The notes beneath the pieces were generated by a model, which was not told the origin of the DNA, made no database searches, and worked only from the letters and a program-made list of their open reading frames with translations. The translations under genes were made by a program, and so were the position numbers. Shown in pieces: positions 2,169-28,980 of a stretch of DNA of 64,000 nt; within the stretch, counting starts at the first letter, position 1; each line of letters starts with the position of its first letter. This DNA comes from Niallia alba (GTDB taxonomy: Bacteria > Bacillota > Bacilli > Bacillales > Cytobacillaceae). Location: positions 4,566,001-4,630,000 of the forward strand of contig NZ_JABBPK010000001.1 of assembly GCF_012933555.1 (NCBI RefSeq), written 5' to 3'.

Positions 2169-2363
2169 CTAACAGAGGGAAAGATATAATCTACCACTCC
2201 AATATTCTACAAAATAATCAAATTTCCTGCCAAAATGAAAATAAAAAGAAAGAAGACAACAATACATTTGCTGTACTTCTTCTTTAACAATATCTATAAC
2301 CATCACAAATAAAACGTCCGTGAAGCTTTCCTGTGAAACAAGATTATTCGAGGCGTCACTGTG
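2169..2363 (-). repeat. Type-2 dispersed repeat unit ending in the GTCACTGTG junction
   Basis: This segment contains CCTGTGAAACAAGATTATTC followed by GAGGCGTCACTGTG, the second form of the dispersed repeat in this window (others end near 22490, 23063, 26617 and 28241). On the minus strand it reads through a short frame, ...NNLVSQESFT..., with no confident start. It breaks at the palindrome and is joined directly to the small-peptide remnant at 2371. The left part matches the sequence downstream of the second comM copy. Confidence 0.6.
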
Positions 2364-2370
2364 CACCATA

Positions 2371-2551
2371 CATGAAGAAATTCAAGAAATGTTTCTATGA
2401 TCATCTCCTCCTTTCCTAAACGGAAAAAAGCGCAACAACCAACCATCCTCACAACATTCAGTTGCTAATTCAGTTCATCACATTCACACAATCTAATTCT
2501 CTATCAATCTTCGACAAATTTTGGGGCGTCACTGTGACCATAAGTTTTGAG
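2371..2551 (-). repeat. Type-1 dispersed repeat with a broken copy of the small peptide gene
   Basis: This is a copy of the repeat best preserved at 13832-14448. It has the AGGAAAGGAGGAGATGATC leader and the start of the small frame (ETFLEFL), then is cut after eight or so codons by the GTCACTGTG edge of the type-2 repeat at 2363. Its own right edge is the palindrome at 2528-2538, followed by CATAAGTT. The original ATG context is altered (ATAGAA replaces ATGGAA), so the peptide is not expected to be made from its normal start. Confidence 0.6.
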
Positions 2552-2616
2552 GTACCAGGCACCACATAGTTGAATACCCTATAAAAACATCAATAAGAAA
2601 ATGCGAGCGTGGTATT

Positions 2617-3261
2617 GTGAAGAATCGCGTTGAAATTGCTTCTGTATGGGTGCAAGTGATCGGAACAGTCCTTGCTGCTTTAGGAAATAGTGCTTGGAAA
2701 ATACTTAGTGAAGATGAAGTTAAAAACTTGGATTTAGTAGGGAATATTTTACAAGCTTTCGGAAATGCCGTCCAGGCAGATCAACAAGAAACGGTCACAT
2801 TTGAAAAGATTGGCACACAAATCCAAGCAATTGGAAATACCGTTGTGGCCAGTTCGTATATTTTATTGGAGGAGGATTTAGAAAGTAAATTAATCATTAA
2901 AGGGAATTGGCTTCAGGCATTCGGCGCACTTGTCGAAGCTGTCGATGAGGTGCTGGATAACTCAGGACCGGAACAAACATTAAATATCTTAGGTAATACC
3001 ACACAGGCAGTCGGTAACTCCTTCCAAGCAATCGGCGGGAAGCATATCCTCTTTAACAATAAAGATAAAGGATTATTTTTAGTAATTAGTGGAAGCTGGA
3101 TACAAGCAGTAGGAACGGTATTAAATGCAATTGGCCAAACCGATGAGGAATTAGCAGAAAATAACCATGTTAACCAAAATAAGAGTGTAGAAGATGCCTC
3201 TTCCTTTTATGAGCAAGAAAATCTCAAGCATGCTTGGGAAGAAAGGAATAAATATTATTAG
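2617..3261 (+). CDS. DUF6944-like repetitive protein of unknown function
   Basis: The 214-residue product is built from imperfect repeats of about 20-40 residues with the signature (I/L)QA(I/F)GN: for example QVIGTVLAALGNS, LQAFGNAVQA, IQAIGNTV, TQAVGNSFQAIGG and IQAVGTVLNAIGQ. I recognise this as the repetitive family called DUF6944 in Bacillus; no function is known. The start used is GTG at 2617. No strong Shine-Dalgarno is visible and the gene begins 66 bp from a repeat junction, so loss of some N-terminal repeats is possible. There is no signal peptide. The C-terminus is charged and Asn-rich. A hairpin terminator follows. Confidence 0.6.
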   Translation: MKNRVEIASVWVQVIGTVLAALGNSAWKILSEDEVKNLDLVGNILQAFGNAVQADQQETVTFEKIGTQIQAIGNTVVASSYILLEEDLESKLIIKGNWLQAFGALVEAVDEVLDNSGPEQTLNILGNTTQAVGNSFQAIGGKHILFNNKDKGLFLVISGSWIQAVGTVLNAIGQTDEELAENNHVNQNKSVEDASSFYEQENLKHAWEERNKYY

Positions 3262-3323
3262 CGAATTTCAAAGTTCAAGGTTAATAAACAAAAAAAGGAA
3301 AAGAAATCAATTAAATGATTCAG

Positions 3324-3360
3324 AGTGTAGAGAAAGTATTATTTTCTCTACACTTTTTTA
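3324..3360 (+). terminator. Rho-independent terminator
   Basis: AGTGTAGAGAAA pairs with TTTCTCTACACT across an 8-nt loop and is followed by a T run. It ends the repetitive-protein gene. Confidence 0.8.
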
Positions 3361-3433
3361 TTTTTATAGGATTATCAAAAATGGAATGGTAGGTTCTTTT
3401 ATAGAAGTTTTTAAAAAAAAGACTCTCATGCCC

Positions 3434-4966: not shown

Positions 4967-4977
4967 ACCTATTACCT

Positions 4978-6354: not shown

Positions 6355-6357
6355 CGT

Positions 6358-7379: not shown

Positions 7380-8633
7380 TTATTTATATTTTTCCAAAAT
7401 AAATAATACAAAACAGCAAATCAATGCTGCGATTGGAGCGACTAACCAAATCTCTTCCATCCATATAGTCAATCCAATGCTCACTAATGTCATAACTACC
7501 ATAATCAGGGTAACATTCTTTGCCCGAAATGTTCGTCCGATTATAAAAGGACAACCTGCCGCTCCAAAAAAACCTAGGAAAAACGGAAGCCATGCAGACA
7601 TACTCTCCGACAAGAAGATCGCTAATAGACCTAACACACTACAAGCAATAACCCCTATTAAGTATCCATGCCTTAGTAATCTGTACGCATAATGATTAGT
7701 TCTGTCCCTACTCTTTATCTTTAAAAAGACACTAATTAGTGAAAATAGGGATGTCCCGATTCCAATTGCTAATGCTCCTAGTACGATAAAAATGATGATA
7801 TGAATGATGACTTGATTCATTTGCTCCACTGCTTGATTTTGGACAAACAGAAAGAAGCTAAAGGAAAAAATCGAAAGCATAAATGCGAACCAAATAAAAG
7901 TAGAAAGACGTAATACGGTGACTCGGTGATTGGACTTCACGGCACTTGCTGTTTGCCAAAAAGTTAGGTTTGTGCAAGCTTGTCCAAATACAACCAAAAC
8001 AAACGTCATACTGGCAAAAATCACATCAGCAATGTTGCCACTAAACATCTCTCCCTGATATTTAGTGTATATAGTCTGAACCCCTTCCCCTAAATATAAA
8101 AATAATGTAACAATAACTCCGACAAGGAAGATTGCATAAAAGATGGTTGAGCCTATCTTCCTAACACCATAGCTTCCACCTAAGCCAAAAAATACGAAGC
8201 AAAAGCTGATAAAAATGGCAATTCCTCCAACGGATAATACATCCAATAAAAAATAAGCAAGAATCGTAAATTGCACAAATAGACTTGCCATGCTGGAAAA
8301 AGCAAAGAACCACAGATGGGAATTACCTTTCGCGTCTGTAACCTGCTTCACTTTTTCTTTGGTCATGATGTTGTTCAATAATAGGTACAAACCATATGTA
8401 CAGATGATCAGGATGGGAAATGTCGTTAACTGAAAAGCTTGCATGGACAATATAGGGACAGCAACGGTCACGCCTGAGATAAATTGTAGCGAGATTCCAT
8501 ACGTCCCTGCACTTAACCCAAGTTCACGACTTGTTACCATGTATTCATGGATACTGCGATGTGCACCAATTTTTTCAATAAAAAGGATAAGGACAAAAAA
8601 ACCGATAAATAAGAGAATATACCAATCAATCAT
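7380..8633 (-). CDS. Sodium:solute symporter (SSS family), complete copy
   Basis: This 417-residue protein has about 12 hydrophobic segments. The N-terminal part matches the SSS fold (EYMVTSRELGLSAGTYGISLQFISG). It is shorter than the usual 470-530 residues of the family. Its start overlaps the end of the response regulator gene by 8 bp (8626-8633), so regulator, kinase and transporter form one operon. The gene is complete here; the second copy at 16800-17785 is cut. The substrate may be related to the acetamidase and permease downstream, which is inference from gene order. Confidence 0.8.
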   Translation of the reverse strand: MIDWYILLFIGFFVLILFIEKIGAHRSIHEYMVTSRELGLSAGTYGISLQFISGVTVAVPILSMQAFQLTTFPILIICTYGLYLLLNNIMTKEKVKQVTDAKGNSHLWFFAFSSMASLFVQFTILAYFLLDVLSVGGIAIFISFCFVFFGLGGSYGVRKIGSTIFYAIFLVGVIVTLFLYLGEGVQTIYTKYQGEMFSGNIADVIFASMTFVLVVFGQACTNLTFWQTASAVKSNHRVTVLRLSTFIWFAFMLSIFSFSFFLFVQNQAVEQMNQVIIHIIIFIVLGALAIGIGTSLFSLISVFLKIKSRDRTNHYAYRLLRHGYLIGVIACSVLGLLAIFLSESMSAWLPFFLGFFGAAGCPFIIGRTFRAKNVTLIMVVMTLVSIGLTIWMEEIWLVAPIAALICCFVLFILEKYK

Positions 8634-9330
8634 GGAGCTTCTCCTTTAATTGACTAGGGGTGATTCCTTCCACTTTCTTAAAGGAATTACTAAAGTGATG
8701 CTGGCTGGAAAATCCAACTCTTTGGGCTACTTCAAATAAGGACCAATGTGGGTTTTCCTGCATCAATTGTTTTGCTTTTTTTATGCGAAATCTTGTTATA
8801 TACCCTGTAAACTTTTCCCCCGTTTCTTCCGCGAATTTTTTACTAAGGTATGTTGGAGAAACATATACTTGACTCGCTACATCTGCAAGCTGTAGTTTTT
8901 CTTGATAATGTTCGCGAATAATCTGAAGCACGCTATTAACGAGCGTCGACTTGGTATCAATCCATGCGTGTTTATCCATAAAGTCAGCAAGCATATCGTA
9001 GAATTCTTTCTCAATAACTGGTTTCACTAAGTAATCCATCACATGTAGCTTAATTGCTTGTTTAGCATATTGAAAGTCCTGATGTGCGGTAATAAGGACC
9101 ACTTCTATTTGATTATTATTAGATTGCAAAAATTCACAAAACTTCAAACCTGATTCACCTGGTAATTGAATATCCACTAATGCAAGGGAGAAGTTTGTCT
9201 CTCTTAGCAGGAGCTTTGCTTCACTCGCATCTTCTGACGTATAGATATTCCAATCTGGAAATTTCTTTGCTACTAGAAAGGAGAGTTGTTCCAGTTCCAA
9301 TGGTTCATCATCTACTATTAATATATTCAT
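8626..9330 (-). CDS. Response regulator, REC plus AraC-type HTH (YesN-like)
   Basis: This 234-residue DNA-binding response regulator has an N-terminal receiver domain (MNILIVDDEPLELEQL, phosphoacceptor Asp in ALVDIQLPGESG, then the Lys of YLVKPV). A C-terminal AraC-type double helix-turn-helix follows (LQLADVASQVYVSPTYLSKK and SLFEVAQRVGFSSQHHFSNS). Its start overlaps the kinase stop by 4 bp (ATGA). It likely activates the adjacent symporter and perhaps the acetamidase-permease pair. An identical second copy lies at 17778-18482. Confidence 0.92.
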   Translation of the reverse strand: MNILIVDDEPLELEQLSFLVAKKFPDWNIYTSEDASEAKLLLRETNFSLALVDIQLPGESGLKFCEFLQSNNNQIEVVLITAHQDFQYAKQAIKLHVMDYLVKPVIEKEFYDMLADFMDKHAWIDTKSTLVNSVLQIIREHYQEKLQLADVASQVYVSPTYLSKKFAEETGEKFTGYITRFRIKKAKQLMQENPHWSLFEVAQRVGFSSQHHFSNSFKKVEGITPSQLKEKLHD

Positions 9331-10070
9331 CTTTCACCCTCCGGCGTATATGGCCAAATGACTGTTGCCTCTGTTGCGTTATCTTTACGTTTTAATGAAA
9401 CATCTGTGTACATTTCAAATAATAATTCCAACCGTTTTTTAATATTTTCCAACCCTGTTCCATGCCCACTTTTTTGCTCAATCGCTCTATCCCCATTATC
9501 AGAAACTGTTAATCTCACCCAATCACCATGTCGCTTTAAGGCAATCATCAAATGCTTTTCGCCACGTTTTTTCTCCAAGCCATGCTTAAAGGCATTCTCA
9601 ACAAGCGTTTGTAACGTATAAGACGGCAGCTGGGTTTGATAGGCTCGTTCATCTAGCTCATACGTGATCGTAAGCTTTTTTCCAAAACGAAGCTGCTGAA
9701 TCGATAAGTAATTGTTTGTATGGAATAATTCCCTTTCAAATAAGACAAGCGCTGTCTGATTTGCATGCTGATACTTTAGAAATAAAGAAAATTGCTCCAT
9801 AGCTGTTATGAGATCATCATTTCGCTTCAAACGAGCAAGGGACATCATCGCATTTAAACTATTAAACAAAAAATGCGGACGAATCTTTTGACTGAGCTGT
9901 TCATACTCCATTTGCTGCAGCTGCTTTTCTAATTGAATTTGTTTATTCTCCATATGTAAATAATCAAACTCCTGATTAAGTAGTTTCATAATACTCAGCA
10001 AGACCAAAGCAATAATCGGAATTAATAGACTTACTATCAAAATACCAAAAAAAATAACCATAGCAAACAA
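9327..10070 (-). CDS. LytS/YesM-like sensor histidine kinase with one membrane helix
   Basis: This 247-residue kinase has an N-terminal transmembrane segment (about residues 3-30), a short coiled region, then the His_kinase domain with phosphoacceptor His in KIRPHFLFNSLNA. The HATPase domain shows LVENAFKHG, SDNGD and GTGLENIKKRL. It has no extracellular sensory domain, unlike typical YesM proteins, so signal sensing may need the symporter partner or the membrane. It is the first gene of the kinase-regulator-symporter operon. The second copy at 18479-19222 is identical. Confidence 0.9.
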   Translation of the reverse strand: MFAMVIFFGILIVSLLIPIIALVLLSIMKLLNQEFDYLHMENKQIQLEKQLQQMEYEQLSQKIRPHFLFNSLNAMMSLARLKRNDDLITAMEQFSLFLKYQHANQTALVLFERELFHTNNYLSIQQLRFGKKLTITYELDERAYQTQLPSYTLQTLVENAFKHGLEKKRGEKHLMIALKRHGDWVRLTVSDNGDRAIEQKSGHGTGLENIKKRLELLFEMYTDVSLKRKDNATEATVIWPYTPEGER

Positions 10071-10162
10071 TCCTTTTTCCGTTAAGCATAACTTTTTTTG
10101 TCAAAATGAGCAACGGAATCAGGTTGGCCGTTCAATGGAACGGAAGCAGAGGGACGGTCCGA

Positions 10163-10510
10163 GACCACTGAAAAAGTCCATTTTTTTAGAAACTAGATTT
10201 GAATAAAAGGGCTGAAATATCTAGATATGCCAATAAATTGGGAAAAACATAGTGTTTTTCAGTTCTTTTAGAAATTGAACCAGCCTTTTGAGAGGATAGG
10301 ATAGCTGCTATCCTCTTTAGATTTACTGCTAAGGCAGTAAGTTTTGCCTGTATGGACATGCTTTTTAGACCGTACCCCCTGGCACGATCTAGCCCGTGAA
10401 AATTTTTCATCTCACCGTTCTTCCACTCCTGACAAGCTCTTTTTTTATATTTCTCTCTGAACTCCTCTGTCTTTTGTTGTTGACTATATTCGTAGAATTC
10501 AAGGAAGTAG
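10163..10510 (-). mobile_element. IS1182-family fragment (transposase C-terminus and IS end)
   Basis: The minus strand encodes the C-terminal part of an IS1182-type transposase (EKYKKRACQEWKNGEMKNFH then GLDRARGYGL and LTALAVNLKRIA). The terminal sequence GACCACTGAAAAAGTCC at 10163 is typical of an IS1182 end. The N-terminal two thirds are missing because the fragment is fused at about 10511 to an IS66 end. The IS end sits exactly in the loop of the hairpin that is intact at 19301-19324, so insertion there defines the right edge of the 2.5-kb duplicate. Confidence 0.7.
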
Positions 10511-12558: not shown

Positions 12559-12612
12559 AATCTAACTCTCTATCAATCTTCGACAAATTTCGGGGAGTCA
12601 CTGTGACCATGA
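12559..12612 (-). repeat. Type-1 repeat end abutting a truncated gene
   Basis: The sequence AATCTAACTCTCTATCAATC is followed by the palindrome at 12597-12607 and CATGAGTT. The IS66 end abuts it directly on the left, and the truncated ADP-ribosylglycohydrolase gene on the right. Confidence 0.75.
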
Positions 12613-13365
12613 GTTTATGCGATGGATTATATTAAGCATTTGACAGAGTGGATTTCTAATGCAAAAGATTCTAAATTAGTTTCCGGTCCATCCACTCTTA
12701 GAGCTGTCCAAGCAATTAAAAATGGCGTTCCTATTAACAAAACTGGATATGGCAATACAACCAATGGCGCCGCAATGAAGATTTCACCAATCGGACTTAT
12801 ATCCGAATACAACCAATTAGATGAGTTAATGAAAAATGTGTATGACATTTGTTTACCAACACATAACTCGAGCATAGCTGTATCTGGCGCTTGTGTAGTA
12901 GCAGCCTGCATTAGTTATGTTGCTGCTGGAGGGAAGGATCTAAACGAAATGTGGGAACTTGCTATAAAAGTTGCCGAAGACTCAAAAGGAATTGGGGCCG
13001 AGTTTCCGAGTCCATCCTTATCCTTCCGCATTCAATATGTCCGCGACATTGTTGATAATTGTCTCGAAGAAGAAGCTATCATACGAATTGTCAACGAATT
13101 AGGAACTGGGGTAGAAACGATTGAAACCATTCCTGCTGTCTTGGCTGTTGTACAGCTCGCTAATGGAGACCCGATGAAAGCCGCAAAAATCAGTGCAAGT
13201 TTAGGAGCTGACACAGATACAATCGGCGCTATTTCAGCAAGCATTTGTGGAGGGATGACTCCAAACTTTGATGAAAGTGATGTATCAATAATTGAAGAAA
13301 TCAATTCCTTAGATTTTGATAAACTCGCTGAGAAAGCACTTCCGTTCTCTCCATATTACATTTAA
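12613..13365 (+). pseudogene. ADP-ribosylglycohydrolase family protein, N-terminally truncated
   Basis: The 247-residue frame from 12622 covers the middle and C-terminal parts of a DraG/ARH-type hydrolase, which removes ADP-ribose from proteins or nucleic acids. Conserved parts seen are GYGNTTNGAAMKISPIGL and the metal-binding SLGADTDTIGAISASICGG. The N-terminal metal motif of the GDALG type and about 60-90 residues before it are missing. The cut coincides with the right edge of the type-1 repeat, 7-14 bp upstream. No Shine-Dalgarno precedes the ATG at 12622. The product would lack half the metal site and is probably inactive. Confidence 0.8.
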
Positions 13366-13543: not shown

Positions 13544-13776
13544 TAATCATCTTCTAAACTTCACGAAGGAATTCAAGAAATGTTCTATGATTACCAGCTC
13601 CTTTCCTTAACGGAAAAAAGCGCAACAACCAACCACCAATATCCAGTTGCTATTTAAGTTTATCATTCACACAATCTAATTCTCTATCAATCTTCGACAT
13701 ATTTCGAGGCGTCCCTGTGACCTCGAATTCTCTATCAATCTTCGACATATTTCGGGGCGTCACTGTGACCAAGAAT
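13544..13776 (-). repeat. Degenerate type-1 repeat with two consecutive palindrome edges
   Basis: This copy has the leader of the small peptide gene with a frame-disrupting change (GATTACCAGCTCC replaces the normal GATTATCACCTCC), so the peptide is lost. It then carries two successive ends, CTATCAATCTTCGAC followed by a GTCCCTGTGAC variant (13711-13721) and again by GTCACTGTGAC (13759-13769). The second end appears to be stacked onto the first. Confidence 0.6.
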
Positions 13777-13780
13777 TAAA

Positions 13781-16576: not shown

Positions 16577-16798
16577 GTCACAGTGCAGCGAGCCCCTATT
16601 AGTAGACATGAAAAAGTGACCAAAAAAGTGGCTTTTTCCCCGCACTTACTGGCTCAGATGTCCGCAAATAGTGGCTCAAAACTCCGCACTGCCGGCTCAG
16701 TCTATTCGCAATACTCAACTATTTCAGTTTATCATTCACTCAATCTAATTCTCTATCAATCTTCGACAAACTTCGGGGCGTCACTGTGACCATGAGTT
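16577..16798. repeat. TGGCTCA/TCCGCA repeat block followed by a type-1 edge
   Basis: Three 22-bp units of the pattern TGGCTCAnnnnTCCGCAnnnn (16645-16727) follow a palindrome half, GGTCACAGTG, in inverted orientation at 16576. The block from CAGCGAGCCCC onward is nearly identical to 28758-28890. A normal type-1 edge (16780-16790) follows and abuts the cut symporter copy. Confidence 0.65.
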
Positions 16799-17785: not shown

Positions 17786-18482
17786 GGAGCTTCTCCTTTA
17801 ATTGACTAGGGGTGATTCCTTCCACTTTCTTAAAGGAATTACTAAAGTGATGCTGGCTGGAAAATCCAACTCTTTGGGCTACTTCAAATAAGGACCAATG
17901 TGGGTTTTCCTGCATCAATTGTTTTGCTTTTTTTATGCGAAATCTTGTTATATACCCTGTAAACTTTTCCCCCGTTTCTTCCGCGAATTTTTTACTAAGG
18001 TATGTTGGAGAAACATATACTTGACTCGCTACATCTGCAAGCTGTAGTTTTTCTTGATAATGTTCGCGAATAATCTGAAGCACGCTATTAACGAGCGTCG
18101 ACTTGGTATCAATCCATGCGTGTTTATCCATAAAGTCAGCAAGCATATCGTAGAATTCTTTCTCAATAACTGGTTTCACTAAGTAATCCATCACATGTAG
18201 CTTAATTGCTTGTTTAGCATATTGAAAGTCCTGATGTGCGGTAATAAGGACCACTTCTATTTGATTATTATTAGATTGCAAAAATTCACAAAACTTCAAA
18301 CCTGATTCACCTGGTAATTGAATATCCACTAATGCAAGGGAGAAGTTTGTCTCTCTTAGCAGGAGCTTTGCTTCACTCGCATCTTCTGACGTATAGATAT
18401 TCCAATCTGGAAATTTCTTTGCTACTAGAAAGGAGAGTTGTTCCAGTTCCAATGGTTCATCATCTACTATTAATATATTCAT
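17778..18482 (-). CDS. Response regulator, REC plus AraC HTH (copy 2)
   Basis: Identical in protein sequence to the gene at 8626-9330: receiver Asp in ALVDIQLPGESG, and two C-terminal helix-turn-helices. It keeps the 4-bp overlap with the kinase. Since its own symporter is truncated, it could still act in trans on the complete locus. Confidence 0.9.
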   Translation of the reverse strand: MNILIVDDEPLELEQLSFLVAKKFPDWNIYTSEDASEAKLLLRETNFSLALVDIQLPGESGLKFCEFLQSNNNQIEVVLITAHQDFQYAKQAIKLHVMDYLVKPVIEKEFYDMLADFMDKHAWIDTKSTLVNSVLQIIREHYQEKLQLADVASQVYVSPTYLSKKFAEETGEKFTGYITRFRIKKAKQLMQENPHWSLFEVAQRVGFSSQHHFSNSFKKVEGITPSQLKEKLHD

Positions 18483-19222
18483 CTTTCACCCTCCGGCGTA
18501 TATGGCCAAATGACTGTTGCCTCTGTTGCGTTATCTTTACGTTTTAATGAAACATCTGTGTACATTTCAAATAATAATTCCAACCGTTTTTTAATATTTT
18601 CCAACCCTGTTCCATGCCCACTTTTTTGCTCAATCGCTCTATCCCCATTATCAGAAACTGTTAATCTCACCCAATCACCATGTCGCTTTAAGGCAATCAT
18701 CAAATGCTTTTCGCCACGTTTTTTCTCCAAGCCATGCTTAAAGGCATTCTCAACAAGCGTTTGTAACGTATAAGACGGCAGCTGGGTTTGATAGGCTCGT
18801 TCATCTAGCTCATACGTGATCGTAAGCTTTTTTCCAAAACGAAGCTGCTGAATCGATAAGTAATTGTTTGTATGGAATAATTCCCTTTCAAATAAGACAA
18901 GCGCTGTCTGATTTGCATGCTGATACTTTAGAAATAAAGAAAATTGCTCCATAGCTGTTATGAGATCATCATTTCGCTTCAAACGAGCAAGGGACATCAT
19001 CGCATTTAAACTATTAAACAAAAAATGCGGACGAATCTTTTGACTGAGCTGTTCATACTCCATTTGCTGCAGCTGCTTTTCTAATTGAATTTGTTTATTC
19101 TCCATATGTAAATAATCAAACTCCTGATTAAGTAGTTTCATAATACTCAGCAAGACCAAAGCAATAATCGGAATTAATAGACTTACTATCAAAATACCAA
19201 AAAAAATAACCATAGCAAACAA
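18479..19222 (-). CDS. LytS/YesM-like histidine kinase (copy 2)
   Basis: Identical in protein sequence to 9327-10070, with one N-terminal membrane helix, phosphoacceptor His in KIRPHFLFNSLNA and ATP-lid motif GTGLENIKKRL. The upstream flank here is likely the ancestral one, because the hairpin and sigma-factor gene follow without an IS interruption. Confidence 0.88.
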   Translation of the reverse strand: MFAMVIFFGILIVSLLIPIIALVLLSIMKLLNQEFDYLHMENKQIQLEKQLQQMEYEQLSQKIRPHFLFNSLNAMMSLARLKRNDDLITAMEQFSLFLKYQHANQTALVLFERELFHTNNYLSIQQLRFGKKLTITYELDERAYQTQLPSYTLQTLVENAFKHGLEKKRGEKHLMIALKRHGDWVRLTVSDNGDRAIEQKSGHGTGLENIKKRLELLFEMYTDVSLKRKDNATEATVIWPYTPEGER

Positions 19223-19300
19223 TCCTTTTTCCGTTAAGCATAACTTTTTTTGTCAAAATGAGCAACGGAATCAGGTTGGCCGTTCAATGGAACGGAAGCA

Positions 19301-19324
19301 GAGGGACGGTCCGAACCGTCCCTC
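19301..19324. terminator. Hairpin GAGGGACGGT/ACCGTCCCTC
   Basis: A 10-bp perfect stem with a CCGA loop lies just after the sigma-factor stop codon. There is no clear T run. Only its left arm and loop remain in copy 1 at 10149-10162. Confidence 0.55.
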
Positions 19325-19332: not shown

Positions 19333-19818
19333 TCACAAGCCCAACGTCCGCTTCAACTTCTCCTTCGCTCCTTTCCTCCACCATTTAACCGCTGAAGGAG
19401 AAACCTGTTCTTTCTTCGCAATCTCTTTAACTGTTAACTGTTCAATAAAGGTAAACATGACCCACTTTGTTTCTCCTTCGTTTAATTCATAACAAAGTCC
19501 TTTTATATAGTCCTCTTCTTCTCTGTATAAAATAGGGCTTTCCATTACTTCCCAAAACTCTTCACTTGGATAAGCACTTCTTTCCGCCTCTCTTGTGCGG
19601 CGCTTCAATTCATCGAGAAATCTGCCTTGCATATGCCGATATAAATGATTGCTATATTTGCCTTTTTCTTCATCAAATGTAGACATTGTTTCCCAAATAC
19701 TGATTAACCCAATTTGAAAAAACTCTTGCTTATCTTTATAAATAGTCATCCTTTTCATCATATGATGGATCATCGGCGTAAACTCCTCGACTAATTGATC
19801 ATACGTCTTTCCTTCCAT
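19333..19818 (-). CDS. Sigma-70 family RNA polymerase sigma factor
   Basis: The 161-residue protein has a region 2-like N-terminus (FFQIGLISIWETMSTFDEEK, YSNHLYRHMQGRFLDEL) and a region 4 helix-turn-helix at the C-terminus (QLTVKEIAKKEQVSPSAVKW). It lacks region 3, as in small alternative sigma factors. The size and style recall competence-type small sigma factors of Bacillaceae, and a comM gene is nearby, but the regulon cannot be read from this sequence. No anti-sigma factor gene is adjacent. Confidence 0.8.
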   Translation of the reverse strand: MEGKTYDQLVEEFTPMIHHMMKRMTIYKDKQEFFQIGLISIWETMSTFDEEKGKYSNHLYRHMQGRFLDELKRRTREAERSAYPSEEFWEVMESPILYREEEDYIKGLCYELNEGETKWVMFTFIEQLTVKEIAKKEQVSPSAVKWWRKGAKEKLKRTLGL

Positions 19819-20069
19819 TATCGGTTCCTTTTAGAAAAGCACTTTTCTTGTTATTCCTAGGTACCTTTACTTTATAGAAAGAAGATACATACTTCGATGG
19901 AAGGAAAAGAAAGTATCTAGCTTAAAAGAGGAAAGAAGCTTTAATAATAGATGTTAAACTTGAAGTTTGAGTGGGGGATACTTGATAAATAGTAATAATC
20001 TACTTTTATTGGATATTCTTCTTGAGAAAGATAATAGACTTTTCGCGGTGTCTGACACCTGAATTTATA

Positions 20070-20618
20070 TTAATTAAAGGTTACGCTACAACAATACTTT
20101 TCCCGTTTCTGTGTCGATGTTCCTTCATAATAATCTAGTAAAAAATTCACATTCATAAAACAAGGTACTGTCGAATTCTTCTTATAATATTGATAGCTAC
20201 TCCAAGGATAGTATTCTGCGAGCTTAACCATCCTCGCCTCAACTGGGTTAAGGTGTATATAACGGCTAACTTCTAACATACCTTCTTTGTTCTCAATAAC
20301 TTTGTCATAAAAACGTTTTTCAAAGACATGGCCTGTTAAACGGTATTTGGTGTTATAGTAATTGGCATAACGTTTATTGATTAGTGCCATTAGCTTTGAA
20401 ATGGGTACTTCCCTAGAACGTAATTGTAAATGGAAATGATTGTTCATAAGGCAATAGGAGGCGATTTCAAAGGGGTACTTTTCGTAGAGTTGTGTTAGGA
20501 TATGAAGAAATGCTTGAAAATCACTGGCATTCCGAAACAAAGGATCACGTCGATTTCCCCGGGAAACAATATGATAAAATCGCTCTGGTATATACTCTCG
20601 TTTCTTATAGGGCATCAT
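20070..20618 (-). CDS. REP-associated tyrosine transposase (RAYT), complete
   Basis: This 182-residue Y1 transposase-like protein has the HUH motif in NNHFHLQLR and the catalytic-helix context EVSRYIHLNPVEAR. Its tandem ATGs at 20618 and 20615 overlap the TGA stop of comM. RAYTs are thought to process short palindromic (REP) sequences and are normally not self-mobile. The flanks contain GGTGTCTGACACC at 20046, and the window is rich in other palindromes, but no link to a specific repeat is shown. Confidence 0.88.
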   Translation of the reverse strand: MMPYKKREYIPERFYHIVSRGNRRDPLFRNASDFQAFLHILTQLYEKYPFEIASYCLMNNHFHLQLRSREVPISKLMALINKRYANYYNTKYRLTGHVFEKRFYDKVIENKEGMLEVSRYIHLNPVEARMVKLAEYYPWSSYQYYKKNSTVPCFMNVNFLLDYYEGTSTQKREKYCCSVTFN

Positions 20619-22475
20619 TTCTCCCTCGCAATCGTCGTTTGTTTATTCTGCCCCCAGCGTCTTAAGGTCATCGCTTCCCAAATGGCTTGATCAGCTATTC
20701 TTTCTTCCCCTGCTAAATCAGAAATGGTCCTTGCGAGTCTGATAATTTTTATCTGAACACGGTTGCTCCAGTTTTGCTTAGAAGATATTTGAGTGAGCGT
20801 CTTTTTCTGTTCTGTTGTCAAGGCACTCGTTTCCACCAAAATTTCAAACGGAACCTTCGCATTGGATACTTCTTGTTGATACCGATCATACTGGCGCACG
20901 CGCGCTTTTTCCACTCTTTTACGAATATCATTAGAAGATTCTTGCGTCGTGGAGGACCGGTTAACATTAACTGACTGTAAGGATAAAAGGATGTCCATTC
21001 GGTCATAGATAGGACCTGACAACCGATTTCGGTAGGCTTGAATTTGCTTTTGGGAACAGGTGCAATAATGATGAAGAGAACCGAGGTATCCACATGGACA
21101 AGGGTTCATAGCACCTATTAGGATAAAAGAAGCTGGATACGTCACAGTAGAATGCGCTCTGCTAATGGTTACTTCACCAGTTTCAAGTGGTTGACGGAGC
21201 ATATCAAGCGTTTTTTTGGAGAATTCTGCAATTTCATCGAGAAAAAGGATTCCATGGTGAGCCATCGATATTTCACCTGGTCGCGGGTTCGACCCACCAC
21301 CAATAATGGCGACAGCAGAAGCAGAATGGTGTGGATGCCTGAACGGAACAGAGGGAACATGGATACGTTTTTCACGAGCAAGCTGATACAAACTCATCAC
21401 TTCGAGTTGTGCTTGATTTGTTAATGAAGGTAGGATGGAGGGAAAAGATTCAGCTAACAAGCTCTTTCCACAACCAGGAGGACCATTCATCAGCAAATTA
21501 TGCTCACCAGCTGCAGCAATTTCTAATGCTCTTTTCGCTTTCTCCTGTCCAATTACATGACAGAAATCCTTTTGATGAGTGGCAACATCTGGAGTTAGAT
21601 GATTCTCTGAGGAAAAAGAAGGTTGAGACAGCATGCTTTCTTGCCCTTCCAAATGCTGAACGACTTCCTCGATATGAGACACAACTATACATTCAATATC
21701 CTGTAGCATATGGAGTGGCAGCACCGAATCATAAGGTAAATACACTCGTTTGATCCCAAGTCCCCTTGCCGCAATAACAGCAGGTAGTATCCCTTCCCCA
21801 CTCGCAACCGAACCATCAAGGGATAACGCCCCAATAAACGCCGTATCTATGGGAATCTCACGCTTCACCTCCCCCAGTTCCTTCAAAGCAGCAATTGCGA
21901 TAGCCAGATCAAATAGCGAACCATTTTTCTTTTGATCAGGCGGAGATAGATTCACAACTACCTTCTTATCCGTCACATCCAAATCAAAATGAGCAATCGA
22001 CGCCAACACCCTCTCCCTTGACTCCTTAACAGAAGCATCAGGCAACCCAACAATCACCATAGACTCCGTGTCCTGTGATATCCGCACCTCCACCTGCACA
22101 CGGTAGCCCTCTAATCCTTTCAAACCAATACTTGAAACCTTTACGGTCATACAAAACCCTCCAAACTATTTATTTTTATAGTACGATGAATCAAAACACA
22201 CTGGGAAAGAAACAATTCGAGAAAGAATAAAATAGGAAGATAAATCAATCGAGGTTAATATAGAAGGAATTCTTTTTAGAACAAGAACAACTAACAGAGG
22301 AAAGGAAGAGACAATCTACCACTCCAATATTCTACAAAATAATCAAATTTCCTGCCAAAATGAAAATAAAAAGAAAGAAGAAAACAATATAACTGCTGTA
22401 CTTCTCTTTGACAAATTCCATCGGCAATCCCACAAAACACTCTTGTAAAACTTTCCTGTGAAACAAGATTATTCG
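20131..22475. repeat. comM-RAYT segmental duplication, copy 2
   Basis: Aligns with 1-2350 at an offset of 20130 through both genes, with scattered base differences and small indels beyond the comM start. It is older than the 2.5-kb duplication, which shows no differences. Confidence 0.88.
20615..22150 (-). CDS. comM: YifB/ComM family Mg-chelatase-like AAA+ ATPase (copy 2)
   Basis: This 511-residue paralogue of the gene at 485-2020 carries the same motifs: Walker A GPPGCGKS, Walker B ILFLDEIAEF and GAMNPCPCG. About a dozen residues differ (for example VGKV start region, HVPS for HNQF, YDRY for YERY). It is followed by the coupled RAYT, and that by the sigma factor 250 bp further on. Both copies are intact, so gene dosage or slightly different roles are possible. 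Confidence 0.92.
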   Translation of the reverse strand: MTVKVSSIGLKGLEGYRVQVEVRISQDTESMVIVGLPDASVKESRERVLASIAHFDLDVTDKKVVVNLSPPDQKKNGSLFDLAIAIAALKELGEVKREIPIDTAFIGALSLDGSVASGEGILPAVIAARGLGIKRVYLPYDSVLPLHMLQDIECIVVSHIEEVVQHLEGQESMLSQPSFSSENHLTPDVATHQKDFCHVIGQEKAKRALEIAAAGEHNLLMNGPPGCGKSLLAESFPSILPSLTNQAQLEVMSLYQLAREKRIHVPSVPFRHPHHSASAVAIIGGGSNPRPGEISMAHHGILFLDEIAEFSKKTLDMLRQPLETGEVTISRAHSTVTYPASFILIGAMNPCPCGYLGSLHHYCTCSQKQIQAYRNRLSGPIYDRMDILLSLQSVNVNRSSTTQESSNDIRKRVEKARVRQYDRYQQEVSNAKVPFEILVETSALTTEQKKTLTQISSKQNWSNRVQIKIIRLARTISDLAGEERIADQAIWEAMTLRRWGQNKQTTIAREK

Positions 22476-22490
22476 GGATTTCACTGTGAC
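22300..22490 (-). repeat. Type-2 repeat unit
   Basis: Contains CCTGTGAAACAAGATTATTC then GGGATTTCACTGTGAC (22480-22490). The left part corresponds to 2175-2330. On the minus strand a short frame MEFVKEKYSSYIVFFFLFIF (hydrophobic, 29 codons) is open here but shifted in the other copy, so it is not called as a gene. Confidence 0.5.
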
Positions 22491-22547
22491 CTAAACTTTT
22501 CTACAATAGTCATTGAGTCAACCTAGATTTATATATCTCTTTATTAA

Positions 22548-22865
22548 CTACCGAGATCTCATTACTCTGGCTAAATTTAATTTGTTTTTGTTGAATGTTC
22601 TTGGAAAATTCCCATAATAACCAATGTCTTTTTTTGCATGTTTCATATTTGATATACCAGCTAATAAGTCATCGAAGTAGGAAAGATGTTCATATACTGC
22701 ATTCTCTGTATGTTCACTTAAAATTTCATACTCTTGATATAACCTGTGTGCGTACTGCCTAGTTATTTCTTTAGTCGCTTTAGCATCTTTGTTTTCAATT
22801 TCTCGTCTATAGTCATCCATAATATTAATAAAAGGCTCATTTTTAATTGGGGTCCAGTGCGGCAT
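22548..22865 (-). CDS. Hypothetical protein, 105 residues
   Basis: The ATG at 22865 has GGAGTG at 6 nt. The product (MPHWTPIKNEPFINIMDDYR at its start) is charged, soluble and predicted mainly helical, with no signal peptide. I do not recognise the family. It is isolated between a type-2 and another repeat block. The size and acidic/basic helical character would suit a small immunity-like or regulatory protein, but nothing shows that. Confidence 0.55.
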   Translation of the reverse strand: MPHWTPIKNEPFINIMDDYRREIENKDAKATKEITRQYAHRLYQEYEILSEHTENAVYEHLSYFDDLLAGISNMKHAKKDIGYYGNFPRTFNKNKLNLARVMRSR

Positions 22866-22989
22866 AGTATCACTCCATAATTTTTTACTTACTATTTCAA
22901 TACAAGAGAGAAAAATTCCTGTCGAACTAACTATTCTCTACAGAGAAAAAAGGATTATATTTAACTATTCAAATATAGCACTACTGCTG

Positions 22990-23250
22990 TACTTCTCCTT
23001 TAGCAATTTCACACAAATTCTCTCGTAGAACTTCCTGTGAAACAAGATTTTTCAGTGCCTCACTGTGCAGCAAGAATTTATTATCGGTTTGCCATTGGAA
23101 AGGGAAAAACGCCACCCCCCTCCAATATCCAACTACTATTTAAGTTTATCATTCACACAATCTAATTCTCTATCAATCTTCGACATATTTCGGGGCGTCA
23201 CTGTGACCAAGAATTCTTCGACAAATTTCGGAGCGTCCCTGTGACCAAAC
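22990..23250 (-). repeat. Block of one type-2 and two type-1 edges
   Basis: A type-2 unit ends in CTCACTGTG followed by CAGCAAGAATT (23055-23063). A type-1 edge then ends at 23197-23207, and a short partial edge with GTCCCTGTGAC ends at 23235-23245. On the minus strand the type-2 unit reads NLVSQEVLRE... to KGEVQQ and a stop. Confidence 0.6.
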
Positions 23251-23271
23251 CTGTAGTGGTGTTTTTTAAGT

Positions 23272-25045: not shown

Positions 25046-25075
25046 TCAGCACATAAATTGCGAACGAAACGGGGC

Positions 25076-25275
25076 GTCACCGTGACCTAAAGTGATGGCT
25101 CGCAATTTCCGCAAAGGGCGGCTCTTTTCTCCGCAATGACTGGCTCAAAACTCCTCATAAGTGGCTCATTTCATCTGCAATAATCATCGCTATTTAAGTT
25201 TATCATTCACACAATCTAATTCCCTATCAATCTTCGACAAATTTCGGGTCGTCACTGTGACCATGAGTTCAGTAA
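25076..25275. repeat. Type-1 edges and TGGCTCA units
   Basis: A partial edge GGGGCGTCACCGTGAC (25073-25086) is followed by three or four diverged TGGCTCA/TCCGCAA units (25095-25187). A full type-1 edge comes next, with its palindrome at 25251-25261 and then CATGAGTT. Confidence 0.6.
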
Positions 25276-25309: not shown

Positions 25310-26206
25310 TTAGCGATACTCACTTCCTCCACCCCAAATAGCTCTTCCACCTGTATGCCCTGTTTGTTCATGAGTCTCTTTATCTACTAATTGAATGACT
25401 CCTGGCTCTTCATTATGATGCCATACAAAATTATCTGGTGTTTCCCCGTTCGCTAAGCTGTGTATATCGGTTTGAGATAATCCAATTTCCTTTGCTAAGG
25501 AAGGATCAGCCTGTATAGCTTGATACAAGTTTTCATTGGCAACAGCAAATTGAACATCATCACTTTCTAAATATAATTCCTCCGCTAATTCAACGTGAAA
25601 TGCTGAATCAAAGACAGGAAAAGTACCTTCAACTACTTGACCGTTTGGCAAATCTATATATTTCTCTGCAAAAGGAACTCCAGTATCTGGATGAATATTT
25701 CCACTTAGTCCATCATTTCTCGTATGTAACTCTTCTGCATTTACATCATCTGCCCCATCTATTACATCTAACACACCAATCGCAAGGCTTGATACAGCGA
25801 CAACCTTCCCGATATTTTTTAATCCATTAATCACTTGCTCCTTATCCCCTTGTGAAAAACCTCTAATTGCTTGCCCTGCATTTGCTGCTGTATAAGTGAC
25901 AGCGGAACCGATTCCCTTTATTGTTCTATCAGCAGAATCTTTCATATGAGACAAACCCGCCTGTTTATAATAGTCATCATCTTTTATAAGACCATATGTA
26001 CCTTTTACCGCACCATCAAGAAATTCCCCTGCATTATCCAGAGCACGATAAGACGCTTTTTGTATACCATCTCCTACTTCTTCTATCCACTTACCAGTAC
26101 CTTGATATCTAGTACCAACTGTCTTCCCTATCAGTTTAGCTGAGCCTCCCAGCAATCCTCCACCAACCGTGCCAATCGCCTTACCAACAGAACGAAAAAC
26201 CACCAT
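25310..26206 (-). CDS. Polymorphic-toxin-like protein with C-terminal WHH nuclease domain
   Basis: The 298-residue protein has a Gly/Ala-rich N-terminal half with amphipathic helices (AIGTVGGGLLGGSAKLIGKT), a short linker with NIHPDTGVPF, and a C-terminal HNH/ENDO VII nuclease of the WHH type (DNFVWHHNEEPGVIQLVDKE, then HEQTGHTGGRAIWGGG). Such domains are DNase toxins used in interbacterial competition and normally need an immunity protein. Downstream (lower coordinates) a repeat edge begins about 35 bp after the stop and no immunity gene follows, so the partner may have been lost. No LXG or signal sequence is visible. Confidence 0.75.
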   Translation of the reverse strand: MVVFRSVGKAIGTVGGGLLGGSAKLIGKTVGTRYQGTGKWIEEVGDGIQKASYRALDNAGEFLDGAVKGTYGLIKDDDYYKQAGLSHMKDSADRTIKGIGSAVTYTAANAGQAIRGFSQGDKEQVINGLKNIGKVVAVSSLAIGVLDVIDGADDVNAEELHTRNDGLSGNIHPDTGVPFAEKYIDLPNGQVVEGTFPVFDSAFHVELAEELYLESDDVQFAVANENLYQAIQADPSLAKEIGLSQTDIHSLANGETPDNFVWHHNEEPGVIQLVDKETHEQTGHTGGRAIWGGGSEYR

Positions 26207-26554: not shown

Positions 26555-26625
26555 AAACTCTTAAACCTCCCGTGAAATATTCCTGTGAAACAGGATTATT
26601 CGAGGAGTAACTGTGACCTAGAATT
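26555..26625 (-). repeat. Type-2 repeat edge
   Basis: CCTGTGAAACAGGATTATTC, then GAGGAGTAACTGTGAC (26607-26617) and CTAGAATT. The change to GTAAC is synonymous in one reading frame (VTVTP). Confidence 0.55.
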
Positions 26626-26639
26626 ATGATTGTTCTTTT

Positions 26640-27012: not shown

Positions 27013-27471
27013 ATGAAAGAAATCCTTACTACGTACAAAGTTAATGAAGAAACAAACGCACTAAAACCAGCTTTTCAGCTAGACTATCAAACAATCGTAC
27101 TAGAGGGGCAGCGAGAACTCTATGTAAAACAAACTCCATTAGAATTAATTAAATTGGCAGCAAAAGAAGGAGGAGCAGAATATAATGGCCGGCGAATTTC
27201 AATGACTTATTTAACAGGCATTCATAAAAAAATTCCGATTCCAATTAATCCACTTAAAAACATCTATGCTTTTCCAACTTCTTCTCCAAATCAACCCCAT
27301 TGCTGTTGGATATTCTTCCAACATGTCGAAGAAATTAAACCAACAAAAGGCACCTATCGTTCTATTATCCAATTTAAAAATGGCATTGAAATAAAAATGT
27401 ACGAATCCCTGCATATCTTGGAGAAACAAATGTATCGAACCTGGTTATGCCAAAAAGCACTTAATGAGTAA
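27013..27471 (+). CDS. comK: ComK-family competence transcription factor, short form
   Basis: The 152-residue protein matches ComK through the core segment IPINPLKNIYAFPTSSPNQP with HCCWIFFQHV (compare the PTLSSTRPQCGWI region of Bacillus subtilis ComK), and through the final QMYRTWL. The classical protein is about 192 residues; this one ends about 35 residues earlier and so lacks the C-terminal tail involved in MecA-dependent degradation and multimer formation. It may be a ComK paralogue of the short type found in some Bacillaceae. The start has AAGGAGC at 8 nt. Confidence 0.82.
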   Translation: MKEILTTYKVNEETNALKPAFQLDYQTIVLEGQRELYVKQTPLELIKLAAKEGGAEYNGRRISMTYLTGIHKKIPIPINPLKNIYAFPTSSPNQPHCCWIFFQHVEEIKPTKGTYRSIIQFKNGIEIKMYESLHILEKQMYRTWLCQKALNE

Positions 27472-27621
27472 TTACAGTGATAAGGAAAGAAGTAATTTAA
27501 ACTTCAAACACTCCTAATAAAATTTTCTTTTGAAATTTGTAAAAATATAGAAAAATACACATTATCGTTTATGTTCATTCCTTTTTCCTCTTTAGATAAT
27601 GAGGAAAAAAGAGGGATAACA

Positions 27622-27891
27622 TTGTCCAACGAGCTATATAAAACCCAAATCTATAAATCAATATTCGGAAGAAAGATCCGAAATAAAAGAAACATAAGAA
27701 ATGTAAGTATTCAGCAACTTGCAGAAGATTCAGGGGTAAGTGTCAACCATATAAACAATATTGAGCTTGGCAAATCACACCCAAGCGCAGGTTTATTCCA
27801 TGCTATTTGTAACGCCCTACACATTGATGCAACCACGTTTTTTAAAGAAGTGATGGAAGAAGTGGAATTGTTGATATTGGAAGAGGAATAA
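27622..27891 (+). CDS. XRE-family helix-turn-helix regulator
   Basis: A TTG start at 27622 is preferred because GAGGG lies 6 nt upstream and the helix-turn-helix follows at normal distance; an in-frame ATG at 27571 has no binding site. The 89-residue product carries a Cro/C1-type HTH (VSIQQLAEDSGVSVNHINNI then ELGKSHPSAGLFHAICNALH) and an acidic C-terminus. It sits 150 bp downstream of comK and could be its co-regulator, but a separate role is equally possible. Confidence 0.78.
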   Translation: MSNELYKTQIYKSIFGRKIRNKRNIRNVSIQQLAEDSGVSVNHINNIELGKSHPSAGLFHAICNALHIDATTFFKEVMEEVELLILEEE

Positions 27892-27975
27892 CGTAGAACA
27901 CTAACTCCCTCATTTTCTAATCAACTAAGTTCTATAATAAATATGAAGTTATTAGAAAAGGAAATATGACTTTTT

Positions 27976-28006
27976 CTTCTGGGGACAGTACAATTGTCCC
28001 CAGAAG
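27976..28006 (+). terminator. Hairpin CTTCTGGGGACA/TGTCCCCAGAAG
   Basis: A 12-bp perfect stem with a 7-nt loop about 85 bp past the regulator stop. The stem is preceded by TTTTT and lacks a long T run after it, so it may terminate transcription from either side or be a dispersed palindrome. Confidence 0.55.
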
Positions 28007-28159
28007 TTTACAATTTGCTAACTTTTTTGATAAATTAAATATGAGCATCTAACGTACAATTCTATTAAGCTTCTAGGATAGAAGTGACCAAGCTTACTTC
28101 ATTTGCGATTTTCCACCTTAAAACTGAACTGCTTAACAAAACTATCATACTTCTTCATT

Positions 28160-28250
28160 GAAAAATTCCAACCGCATTCACACACAAAACCTCTCGTGAA
28201 ACATTCCTGTGAAACAAGATTATTCGAGGCGTAACTGTGAACTAGAATTA
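28160..28250 (-). repeat. Type-2 repeat edge abutting an istB fragment
   Basis: CCTGTGAAACAAGATTATTC, then GAGGCGTAACTGTGAA (28231-28241) and CTAGAATTA. The IS21 fragment starts immediately after. Confidence 0.6.
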
Positions 28251-28492
28251 ATGAAAACCGAAGTATAGTGATTACAACCAATCTTCAATTCGGTCAATGG
28301 AATCATGTTTTTGGCGACCCGATTCTAACAGAAGCTGTCATTGACCGCCTGATTCACCATTCTCATTTACTTGTTTTTAAAGGAGATAGTTTTCGTTATA
28401 AAGAGTCTTTATTGCATCAATAATTTGAAGTGACAAGTGGCATGCATATTTAATTGCCATTTGGTACATTTTTTAATTGCCAAATACAATCA
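28251..28492 (+). mobile_element. IS21 istB C-terminal fragment and right end
   Basis: The frame reads VITTNLQFGQWNHVFGDP, then LTEAVIDRLIHHSHLL and KGDSFRYKESLLHQ to a stop near 28426. This is the end of an IS21 IstB helper ATPase. The 3' flank carries the repeated AATTGCCA elements typical of an IS21 terminus. About 200 N-terminal residues are missing; the cut coincides with the type-2 edge. Confidence 0.72.
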
Positions 28493-28980
28493 TTCACACA
28501 ATCTAATTCCCTATCAATCTTCGACATATTTCGGGTCGTCACTGTGACCATGAGTTAACAATCTAACTCTCTATCAATCTTCGACAAATTTCAGGGAGTC
28601 ACTGTGACCATGAGTTACTGGCTCAGATGTCCGCAAATAGTGGCTCAAAACTCCGCAATGCCGGCTCAATCTATTCGCAATACTCAATTATTTTAGTTTA
28701 TCATTCACACAATCCAATTCTCTATCAATCTTCGACAAACTTCGGGGCGTCACTGTGCAGCGAGCCCCTATTAGTAGACATGAAAAAGTGACCAAAAAAG
28801 TGGCTTTTTCCCCGCACTTACTGGCTCAGATGTCCGCAAATAGTGGCTCAAAACTCCGCACTGCCGGCTCAGTCTATTCGCAATACTCAACTATTTCATT
28901 CACTCAGTCTAATTCTCTATCAATCTTCGACATATTTCGGGGCGTCACTGTGACCAAGAATTATTACTGTGACCAAGAGT
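28493..28980. repeat. Stack of type-1 edges and TGGCTCA units
   Basis: Four type-1 edges occur in under 500 bp (palindromes at 28538-28548, 28598-28608, 28749-28757, 28944-28954), plus a partial ACTGTGAC at 28968. They are separated by two blocks of 22-bp TGGCTCA/TCCGCA units (28617-28690, 28809-28892). The block at 28758-28890 is nearly identical to 16586-16735. This is the right-most occurrence of the repeat family. Confidence 0.7.

Follow-up and report, generated by a model that had tools for sequence, protein, structure and literature searches.

The closest described relatives of the locus examined in this study are systems built around HUH enzymes, which act on single-stranded DNA. Insertion sequences (IS) of the IS200/IS605 group carry a subterminal hairpin and are cleaved 3' of the right-end hairpin, while IS91/ISCR and Helitron elements combine an HUH enzyme and helicase activity with a 3' hairpin near a fixed end and the capture of neighbouring DNA. 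Repetitive extragenic palindromes (REPs), and the REPINs related to them, are linked to genes for REP-associated tyrosine transposases (RAYTs), as in the E. coli REPtron. GTAG and CGTC REPs are mostly inverted dimers and TIRYTs carry inverted repeats, according to the available part of PMC3733652. The available sections of PMC6006769 place subclass 2.1 of the TnpAY1 enzymes (Bertels group 1, TIRYT) in 14.9% of strains, give its motifs as NHVH or NH[YF]H, Y[IV]HLNP or YIELNP, and W[EQ] or FQ, and report no REP-like sites for it. The window analysed here is a 64,000-nt stretch of the Niallia alba genome (G000, 5.24 Mb) whose position 1 is C1:4566001, with negative positions denoting DNA to its left. 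It holds an island in which a repeat, here called an edge (a conserved 5' arm, a short palindrome and a tail), recurs in one orientation beside truncated genes. We propose, with moderate confidence and from sequence comparison, that a RAYT encoded in the island recognises the edges as single strands and joins DNA there, working with a ComM-type ATPase encoded just before it.

Two copies of this gene pair, a Y1/HUH RAYT transposase and a ComM/YifB AAA+ ATPase, were found in the island and had been missing from an earlier description of this DNA made from the sequence alone (the original prediction). They lie in 2.4-kb segments (-69 to 2367 and 20061 to 22491) that are 94.8% identical.

1 to 485 in the window, minus strand: RAYT copy A (Y1_Tnp), from an open reading frame (ORF) at -60 to 485 that runs left of the window; 97% identical to copy B
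485 to 2020, minus strand: ComM/YifB-like AAA+ ATPase copy A (Mg_chelatase, ChlI, Mg_chelatase_C)
20070 to 20618, minus strand: RAYT copy B, 182 aa, with H61 and H63 of NHFH and Y120 of YIHLNP (Y1_Tnp, alignment)
20615 to 22150, minus strand: ComM/YifB AAA+ ATPase copy B, 511 aa, overlapping RAYT copy B by 4 nt (ComM 8rxd, TIGR00368)

The best solved relative of RAYT copy B is TnpA_REP (4er8, E 7.6e-6), and the RAYT scores 77.5 bits against NCBIfam REP_Tyr_transpos, where the cut-off is 80. Its residues H61, H63, Y120, N124 and P125 are each at least 95% conserved across 67 aligned RAYTs; Y1_Tnp is its sole Pfam match, with no long C-terminal helix-turn-helix (HTH)-like domain. ComM copy B belongs to the YifB family, scoring 473.4 bits with TIGR00368 (cut-off 362.4) and matching ComM 8rxd at E 6.2e-83. 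The genome's only two Mg_chelatase_C (YifB-type) genes are the island copies, and its only matches to this RAYT at E<=0.001 are copies A and B.

In type-1 edges the 5' arm TTCGACAAANTTCGGG is followed by the short palindrome and a 7-9-nt tail that often ends in TT. Allowing up to 2 mismatches, GTCACTGTGAC matched the window 43 times on both strands, compared to 6.1 expected and none of 100 shuffles reaching 43; most sites are counted twice in this figure because GTCACTGTGAC is palindromic. The original prediction had counted at least 22 palindrome sites at 2.3-29.0 kb, and a matrix scan gave 22 edges (2355 to 28963, all on the plus strand), a number that is a re-listing plus one and not independent, as the weight matrix was trained on 21 window sites. 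Two types of left arm had also been described and both are present, type 1 in 14 exact copies and type 2 in 5 copies (up to 1 mismatch), all on the plus strand of the window. In agreement with the earlier estimate that conservation ends about 8 bp to the right, column conservation drops 8-10 nt right of the palindrome, and the stacking of edges on each other is visible in the matrix scan as the pairs 13711/13759, 23197/23235, 28538/28598 and 28944/28963.

2330 to 2373, plus strand: edge type 2, variant GTCACTGTGCA (arm search, matrix)
2501 to 2546, plus strand: edge type 1; the DNA joined to it lies upstream of a DUF6944 gene; the same-genus relative G008 has no edge there (arm search, G008 comparison)
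12570 to 12615, plus strand: edge type 1, abutting the truncated ADP-ribosylglycohydrolase (matrix, G008 comparison)
13684 to 13729, plus strand: edge type 1 (GTCCCTGTGAC) (matrix)
13732 to 13777, plus strand: edge type 1, stacked directly on the preceding edge (matrix)
14070 to 14115, plus strand: edge type 1, closing the first 334-bp unit (matrix, self-comparison)
14404 to 14449, plus strand: edge type 1, closing the second 334-bp unit and abutting the truncated recombinase (matrix, self-comparison)
15820 to 15865, plus strand: edge type 1 (matrix)
16753 to 16798, plus strand: edge type 1, joined to the interior of a copied ORF (self-comparison, ORF map)
22455 to 22498, plus strand: edge type 2, about 330 bp upstream of ComM copy B (arm search, matrix)
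23034 to 23077, plus strand: edge type 2, variant (arm search, matrix)
23170 to 23215, plus strand: edge type 1 (matrix)
23216 to 23253, plus strand: edge, left-truncated, stacked (matrix)
25050 to 25094, plus strand: edge with a diverged arm (GTCACCGTGAC) (matrix)
25224 to 25269, plus strand: edge type 1 (matrix)
26582 to 26625, plus strand: edge type 2 (arm search, matrix)
28206 to 28249, plus strand: edge type 2, abutting a 57-codon tail (arm search, matrix, ORF map)
28511 to 28556, plus strand: edge type 1 (matrix)
28557 to 28616, plus strand: edge type 1, a 60-bp unit stacked on the preceding edge (matrix, insertion test)
28722 to 28767, plus strand: edge with a type-1 arm, joined inside the palindrome (GTGCAGCGAGCC) and thus off the usual offset (matrix, G008 comparison)
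28917 to 28962, plus strand: edge type 1 (matrix)
28963 to 28981, plus strand: edge, 19 bp, left-truncated, stacked (matrix)

The repeats share 46-176 bp of recognisable homology, no left end common to the 22 window units is visible, and each ComM copy has a type-2 edge some 330 bp upstream. Scanning the 50 kb left of the window with the matrix gave 6 further sites (4 plus, 2 minus), with matches extending to about 15 kb left of the window and one site, at -513, doubtful since it has no arm. Across the whole genome the exact type-1 arm CTATCAATCTTCGAC has 16 matches (15 plus, 1 minus), all in C1:4555-4595 kb, and is therefore restricted to one 40-kb island.

Relatives were sampled as 74 named RAYT loci from a protein search (labelled L###), whose hosts we take from the genus names in the locus titles to be members of the Bacillaceae/Bacillus group, and as a separate set of 61 genomes (G###); L070 and L084 duplicate G009 and G010 and were omitted from edge and joint counts. 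ComM adjoins RAYT in 49 of the 74 loci, 38 times on the RAYT 5' side and 11 times on the 3' side, in a scripted recount whose distance rule misses L111 and L139. With up to 2 mismatches the arm TTCGACAWANTTCGGG was found in 63 of the 74 loci, where 184 of 199 matches were antisense to RAYT and 15 sense (5 in a reversed-sequence control), and the window-trained matrix gave 57 antisense matches, 1 sense match and no control match. When arm and palindrome were both required, 204 of 216 edges shared one orientation relative to RAYT; the palindrome was GTGACAGGCAC in 109 of them, GTCACTGTGAC in 51 and a variant in the rest. All 23 edges of G030 lie on one strand, spread over 67 kb around RAYT, many of them between ORFs. 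In eight loci (L070, L077, L112, L116, L117, L118, L134 and L136) an edge lies directly beyond the RAYT stop codon, so that the RAYT gene there starts right after the edge; only L070 and L134 among them have a ComM neighbour. Eight of the 15 sense matches are found no more than 2 kb from the RAYT start, on its 3' side (L077, L114, L121, L126, L133, L136 and, twice, L141); most of these loci are more diverged, and some lineages may have an arrangement resembling terminal inverted repeats (TIRs). In the set of 61 genomes, arm matches numbered 147 (control 20) in the 14 with a best RAYT match of 51% identity or more, compared to 44 (control 26) in the 23 with a more distant RAYT match and 31 (control 21) in the 24 with none, 14 of which come from G028 alone. 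Judged by these comparisons, similar one-way repeat clusters lie beside related RAYT genes in many Bacillus-group bacteria.

Within the island, several genes are cut at edges. The ADP-ribosylglycohydrolase at 12622 to 13365 (plus strand) and the tyrosine recombinase at 14457 to 15011 (plus strand), both named as truncated by the original prediction, lack their N-termini: the former covers positions 72-278 of 287 of its Pfam profile and G008 is continuous across that point, and the latter matches only positions 137-284 of 295 of the XerC profile. The proposed istA (15.86 kb) is a 16-codon ORF start and the proposed istB (28.25 kb) a 57-codon tail, each abutting an edge. What had been called symporter copy 2 is indeed an ORF cut where copy 1 (7380-8633) continues, but the symporter label has no support from Pfam or NCBIfam. 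The clearest joint, with both copies in one genome, involves the same region: positions 16800-19317 duplicate 7648-10166 (2519 bp, 99.96% identity), and this second copy begins within an ORF, right after an edge.

7648 to 10166, no strand assigned: source segment with the end of an unassigned hydrophobic ORF, a response regulator (8626-9330) and another ORF (self-comparison, family search)
16781 to 17785, minus strand: ORF cut at an edge, copy 2 of 7380-8633, no family match (self-comparison, ORF map)
16800 to 19317, no strand assigned: copy of 7648-10166 that begins at an edge (99.96% identity)
13781 to 14448, plus strand: 334-bp edge-to-edge tandem duplication (300/300 identical at spacing 334)

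An empty-site comparison, as the original prediction had recommended, found the right flank continuing edge-free in G008 at the edges -10778, 2528, 12597, 16780 and 28598. In addition, nine non-IS blocks of at least 400 bp common to the G000 and G008 islands differ in order and agree in orientation, and 8 of their 18 ends, read by eye, lie about 10 nt or less from the end of a G000 edge. Breakpoints were then counted for 214 of the 216 edges, those with less than 250 bp to the right being skipped; 84 of the 214 were informative on the right flank, against relatives or second copies. Right-flank homology breaks +5 to +11 nt after the palindrome at 32 of these 84 edges, compared to 14 of 326 control points (five random sets), and runs through at 5 of the 84 compared to 220 of the 326. 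With comparison DNA that has no edge, 27 of 74 edges break at +5 to +11 and the next four 7-nt windows hold 7, 1, 3 and 2; 27 of the 32 breaks persist. The commonest single homology start is +10 (10 edges). An identity profile of 37 joints stays at about 0.25 to +6, is 0.46-0.57 at +7 to +9 and reaches at least 0.78 from +10, although these joints were chosen for an alignment start at +5 to +12, which limits the profile to showing sharpness within that range, and some comparison sequences have a shifted edge. Because of the breakpoint counts at +5 to +11, including those with edge-free DNA, the position of the joint relative to the palindrome can be fixed, from sequence, to a few nt; its partner is arbitrary, and perhaps 2-3 nt of sequence are shared. 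Of 19 edges with a second copy of the right flank in the same sequence (counted without a control and ignoring minus-strand rows, which are self-matches from the coordinate frame), 13 have it upstream only, 4 downstream only and 2 on both sides, as expected if an edge was joined to earlier DNA or a unit was circularised and re-inserted.

In the mechanism that we propose, the RAYT would recognise arm and palindrome and cleave the DNA strand on the 3' side, 7-9 nt past the palindrome, and the 3' end of the edge would be rejoined to another 5' end, which could be that of an arbitrary site or of the sequence following a different edge. The resulting units would have a fixed right end (the edge), an arbitrary left end and one orientation, and local duplication of units would be possible, perhaps through circles or when an edge is joined to sequence that lies upstream of it; a gene whose interior became joined to an edge would be truncated there. 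A cut at a fixed distance 3' by an HUH enzyme would yield such joints, keep the orientation and leave the other end free. Where present, ComM may serve as the helicase of RAYT, an unwinding partner in the reaction. Folding of the palindrome into a hairpin is weakly supported by DNA folding models of seven real edges, two of which, a type-2 edge of the window (z -2.96) and an L138 edge whose stem takes in the tail (z -3.80), clearly beat shuffles. Base pairing between arm and tail as a guide was also considered and is not convincingly supported: mutual information is significant at some column pairs, with no nested antiparallel pattern, and is probably phylogenetic. An Rfam scan of the window at gathering thresholds gave no match.

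Several observations weigh against this mechanism. The other five of the folded edges do not beat shuffles (z -1.43 to +1.60), and 25 of the 74 loci have no ComM match next to RAYT. Eight other, more distant Y1_Tnp matches occur elsewhere in the genome, one of them with a stop, making another enzyme possible. G028 (contigs C1, C2 and C4) has its 14 arm matches although no RAYT was matched at E<=1e-10, perhaps because the enzyme was lost, and G010 and G059 lack strict-arm matches despite a close RAYT, the edges of G010 being type 2. Fifty of 82 broken-homology edges break outside +5 to +11 (8 at +1 to +4, 14 at +12 to +40 and 28 later); distant relatives blur the apparent homology start at edges. 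The loci are related and hence not independent, which overstates significance, and the two 334-bp copies are not an exact cassette duplication, their left ends differing by about 4 nt. Finally, the large G000 segment between about -8014 and 2546 may be a two-ended insertion whose left end is at a motif at -8032 to -8014.

This last segment speaks for regarding the edges as right ends of two-ended IS200/IS605-like elements, RAYT-ComM and non-autonomous derivatives, whose left ends have diverged or been lost and whose stacking reflects insertion beside existing ends. Against G008 4140989-4141007 it reads as a 10.6-kb insertion with its left joint in TTTGTCTTTTTATGGTGCC; a 2-mismatch copy of TTTGTCTTTTTATGGTGCC lies no more than about 60 bp beyond the RAYT copy A stop codon, and a more diverged CTTTTCGCGGTGTCTGACACC occupies the matching place in copy B and in G008. 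However, no left end shared by the window units is visible, the TTTGTCTT motif acts like a separate repeat family, and 285 edges (some counted twice, since L059-L063 and L066-L067 overlap L076, L131, L086 and L117) gave no clean two-sided insertion at an unrelated site in a test of low power with distant relatives; the listed insertion cases of at least 25 bp were all stacked, tandem or repeat-internal. We consider this explanation possible but unlikely.

The orientation bias might instead come from REP-like units that insert into one strand at replication forks and hop locally, with no array function. Lagging-strand single-strand targeting is stated for IS608 and ISDra2 in the available part of PMC6006769, and the wide spread of the G030 edges, many between ORFs, would fit such insertion, whereas the neighbouring clusters of G036 are oppositely oriented; with origin and terminus unmapped this is no real test, and the explanation appears doubtful. 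One-sided deletion, in which DNA from the edge rightward to a random point is lost through RAYT action or a replication stall at the palindrome, is improbable. It would account for the truncated genes examined sitting just right of edges and for left-truncated edges following edges, but the blocks of G000 and G008 differ in order rather than merely having lost pieces, several partners are duplicates with a second copy upstream that deletion alone does not make, and the shared orientation is left unexplained. Very improbable is the shuffling of the island by homologous recombination among inert intergenic repeats, with IS elements causing the truncations: the shared repeat homology and the transposase genes or fragments of the island (IS66, DDE_Tnp_1 and DDE_Tnp_1_6) would allow it, but recombination within a repeat cannot reproducibly break just past the palindrome beside edge-free DNA, at the same offset when edges from several genera with different palindromes are pooled.

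Compared to REP/REPIN-RAYT systems, the joining sites proposed here for the RAYT share a Y1/HUH enzyme with the Y---NP signature and a match to TnpA_REP, as well as short palindromic repeats that are linked to the gene and differ between lineages. Unlike REPs, the edges have a foot that is mostly TTCGGGGC or TTCGGGTG (by eye) in place of GT[AG]G, cluster near the gene head to tail in one direction where REPs form inverted pairs, are confined in G000 (exact-arm copies) to 40 kb rather than dispersed, and combine a fixed joint and an arbitrary partner with a ComM partner in about two thirds of loci. Because the GT[AG]G foot and inverted pairs are absent, we do not file the edges as canonical REPs; they would work like REP/RAYT sites with a one-sided outcome. 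NHFH and YIHLNP fit the subclass 2.1 row in the available part of PMC6006769, but the window RAYT has FE (VFEKRF) where that table gives W[EQ] or FQ, and it is 182 aa, compared to a median of 238, without the long C-terminal HTH-like domain. Edges are also mostly direct, unlike the long terminal inverted repeats on both sides of TIRtrons described in the available sources. The expected single-strand HUH chemistry and the position of the joint resemble those of IS200/IS605 elements (IS608), whereas the RAYT has Y---NP (YIHLNP) and not Y---Q, its right joint is defined and no left end is recognised, its two copies are about 95% identical in place of many near-identical ones, and an AAA+ ATPase gene lies beside it. 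The likeness to IS91/ISCR and Helitron elements is limited by a Y1 rather than Y2 enzyme, a separate ComM-type ATPase and the lack of a full end pair. Integron cassette arrays likewise consist of one-way units that end in a joining site and differ in order between relatives, but edges are joined to arbitrary DNA and the enzyme is HUH. No intact integron integrase was found among the island ORFs searched, a subset of all ORFs, only the N-truncated XerC-like fragment. Integron attC and integrase, SCC-type att and XerCD dif sites were considered and set aside without specific models, the sole tyrosine recombinase among the searched ORFs being truncated.

The earlier observation of a repeat with a fixed edge is thus confirmed and its interpretation partly supported. 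The edge is tied to a mobile-element enzyme and genes are cut there in edge-free comparisons, and the island does hold a transposase of the kind that was to be looked for, the RAYT with ComM. Classical transposon termini are a poor match, because no common left end is visible, the orientation is mostly direct and the low-power test of 285 edges gave no clean two-sided insertion at an unrelated site; of the three readings offered, a one-ended mobile unit comes closest. A search of titles and the openings of abstracts, with most subscription papers and all preprints outside it, returned no account of the RAYT-ComM pair or of edge repeats. The present results would propose a substrate for subclass 2.1 RAYTs, with a joint position to a few nt and a partner ATPase, making their function testable by a cleavage assay, and would suggest how unidirectional islands of gene fragments arise in Bacillus-group bacteria. 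In Firmicutes, they may also connect a ComM-type protein with a nuclease for single-stranded DNA; the available part of PMC11612176 describes RadA as holding the transformation role there, ComM being canonical in Gram-negatives.

From the gene neighbourhood it is conceivable, though we regard it as a long shot, that RAYT-ComM islands act as competence-coupled arrays that capture DNA in one direction. RAYT would open a chromosomal edge, ComM would drive branch migration and incoming single-stranded DNA would be joined without homology on that side, so that foreign fragments would pile up in one orientation, like an integron without an integrase. Control by competence would fit the ComK-like matches found somewhere in 16 of the 74 loci (no background rate) and the ComK and sigma-like genes of the island.

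19333 to 19818, minus strand: sigma-70-like factor beside RAYT copy B (Sigma70_r2)
27013 to 27471, plus strand: ComK paralogue, one of 3 in the genome (Pfam ComK, 3.6e-37)

A second ComK paralogue lies at C1:4523926-4524366, within about 30 kb of the island, and the third at 1.37 Mb. Two sigma-like stretches, at -38583 and 19350, share 82% identity.

A second repeat, TTTGTCTTTTTATGGTGCC(T/A)GGCACC, is also nearly one-way, at 10:1 in G000 (C1:4498-4571 kb) and 16:1 in G008 (C1:4080-4221 kb). Seven of its 17 G008 copies are at 4132-4146 kb beside a 43%-identical RAYT (4132128-4132619, minus strand), and the two may form a parallel system. The edge joints -10778 and 2528 fall inside the TTTGTCTTTTTATGGTGCC motif. 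Window positions 22491-22880, 390 bp right of an edge, are 100% identical to contig C91 of G009, another species whose RAYT is only 93% identical, which suggests recent horizontal exchange of array DNA.

The minus strand of the type-1 unit at 13.9-14.5 kb has a ribosome-binding site and an ORF of about 30 hydrophobic codons (METFLEFLREVLKG..., by eye), which looks like a type I toxin peptide. Similar stretches occur upstream of ComM in L078, L081, L083, L096 and L100, with an inverted-repeat module beside them in some loci; Rfam, at gathering thresholds, matched nothing but riboswitches in L081, L083, L100, L018 and L053. An ORF at 25310-26206 (minus strand) has Colicin-DNase and WHH nuclease matches and is possibly a polymorphic-toxin fragment within the array. 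Offset self-matches also revealed tandem arrays with a period of about 41 bp at 60051-60352, 61470-62223 and -29063 to -28532.

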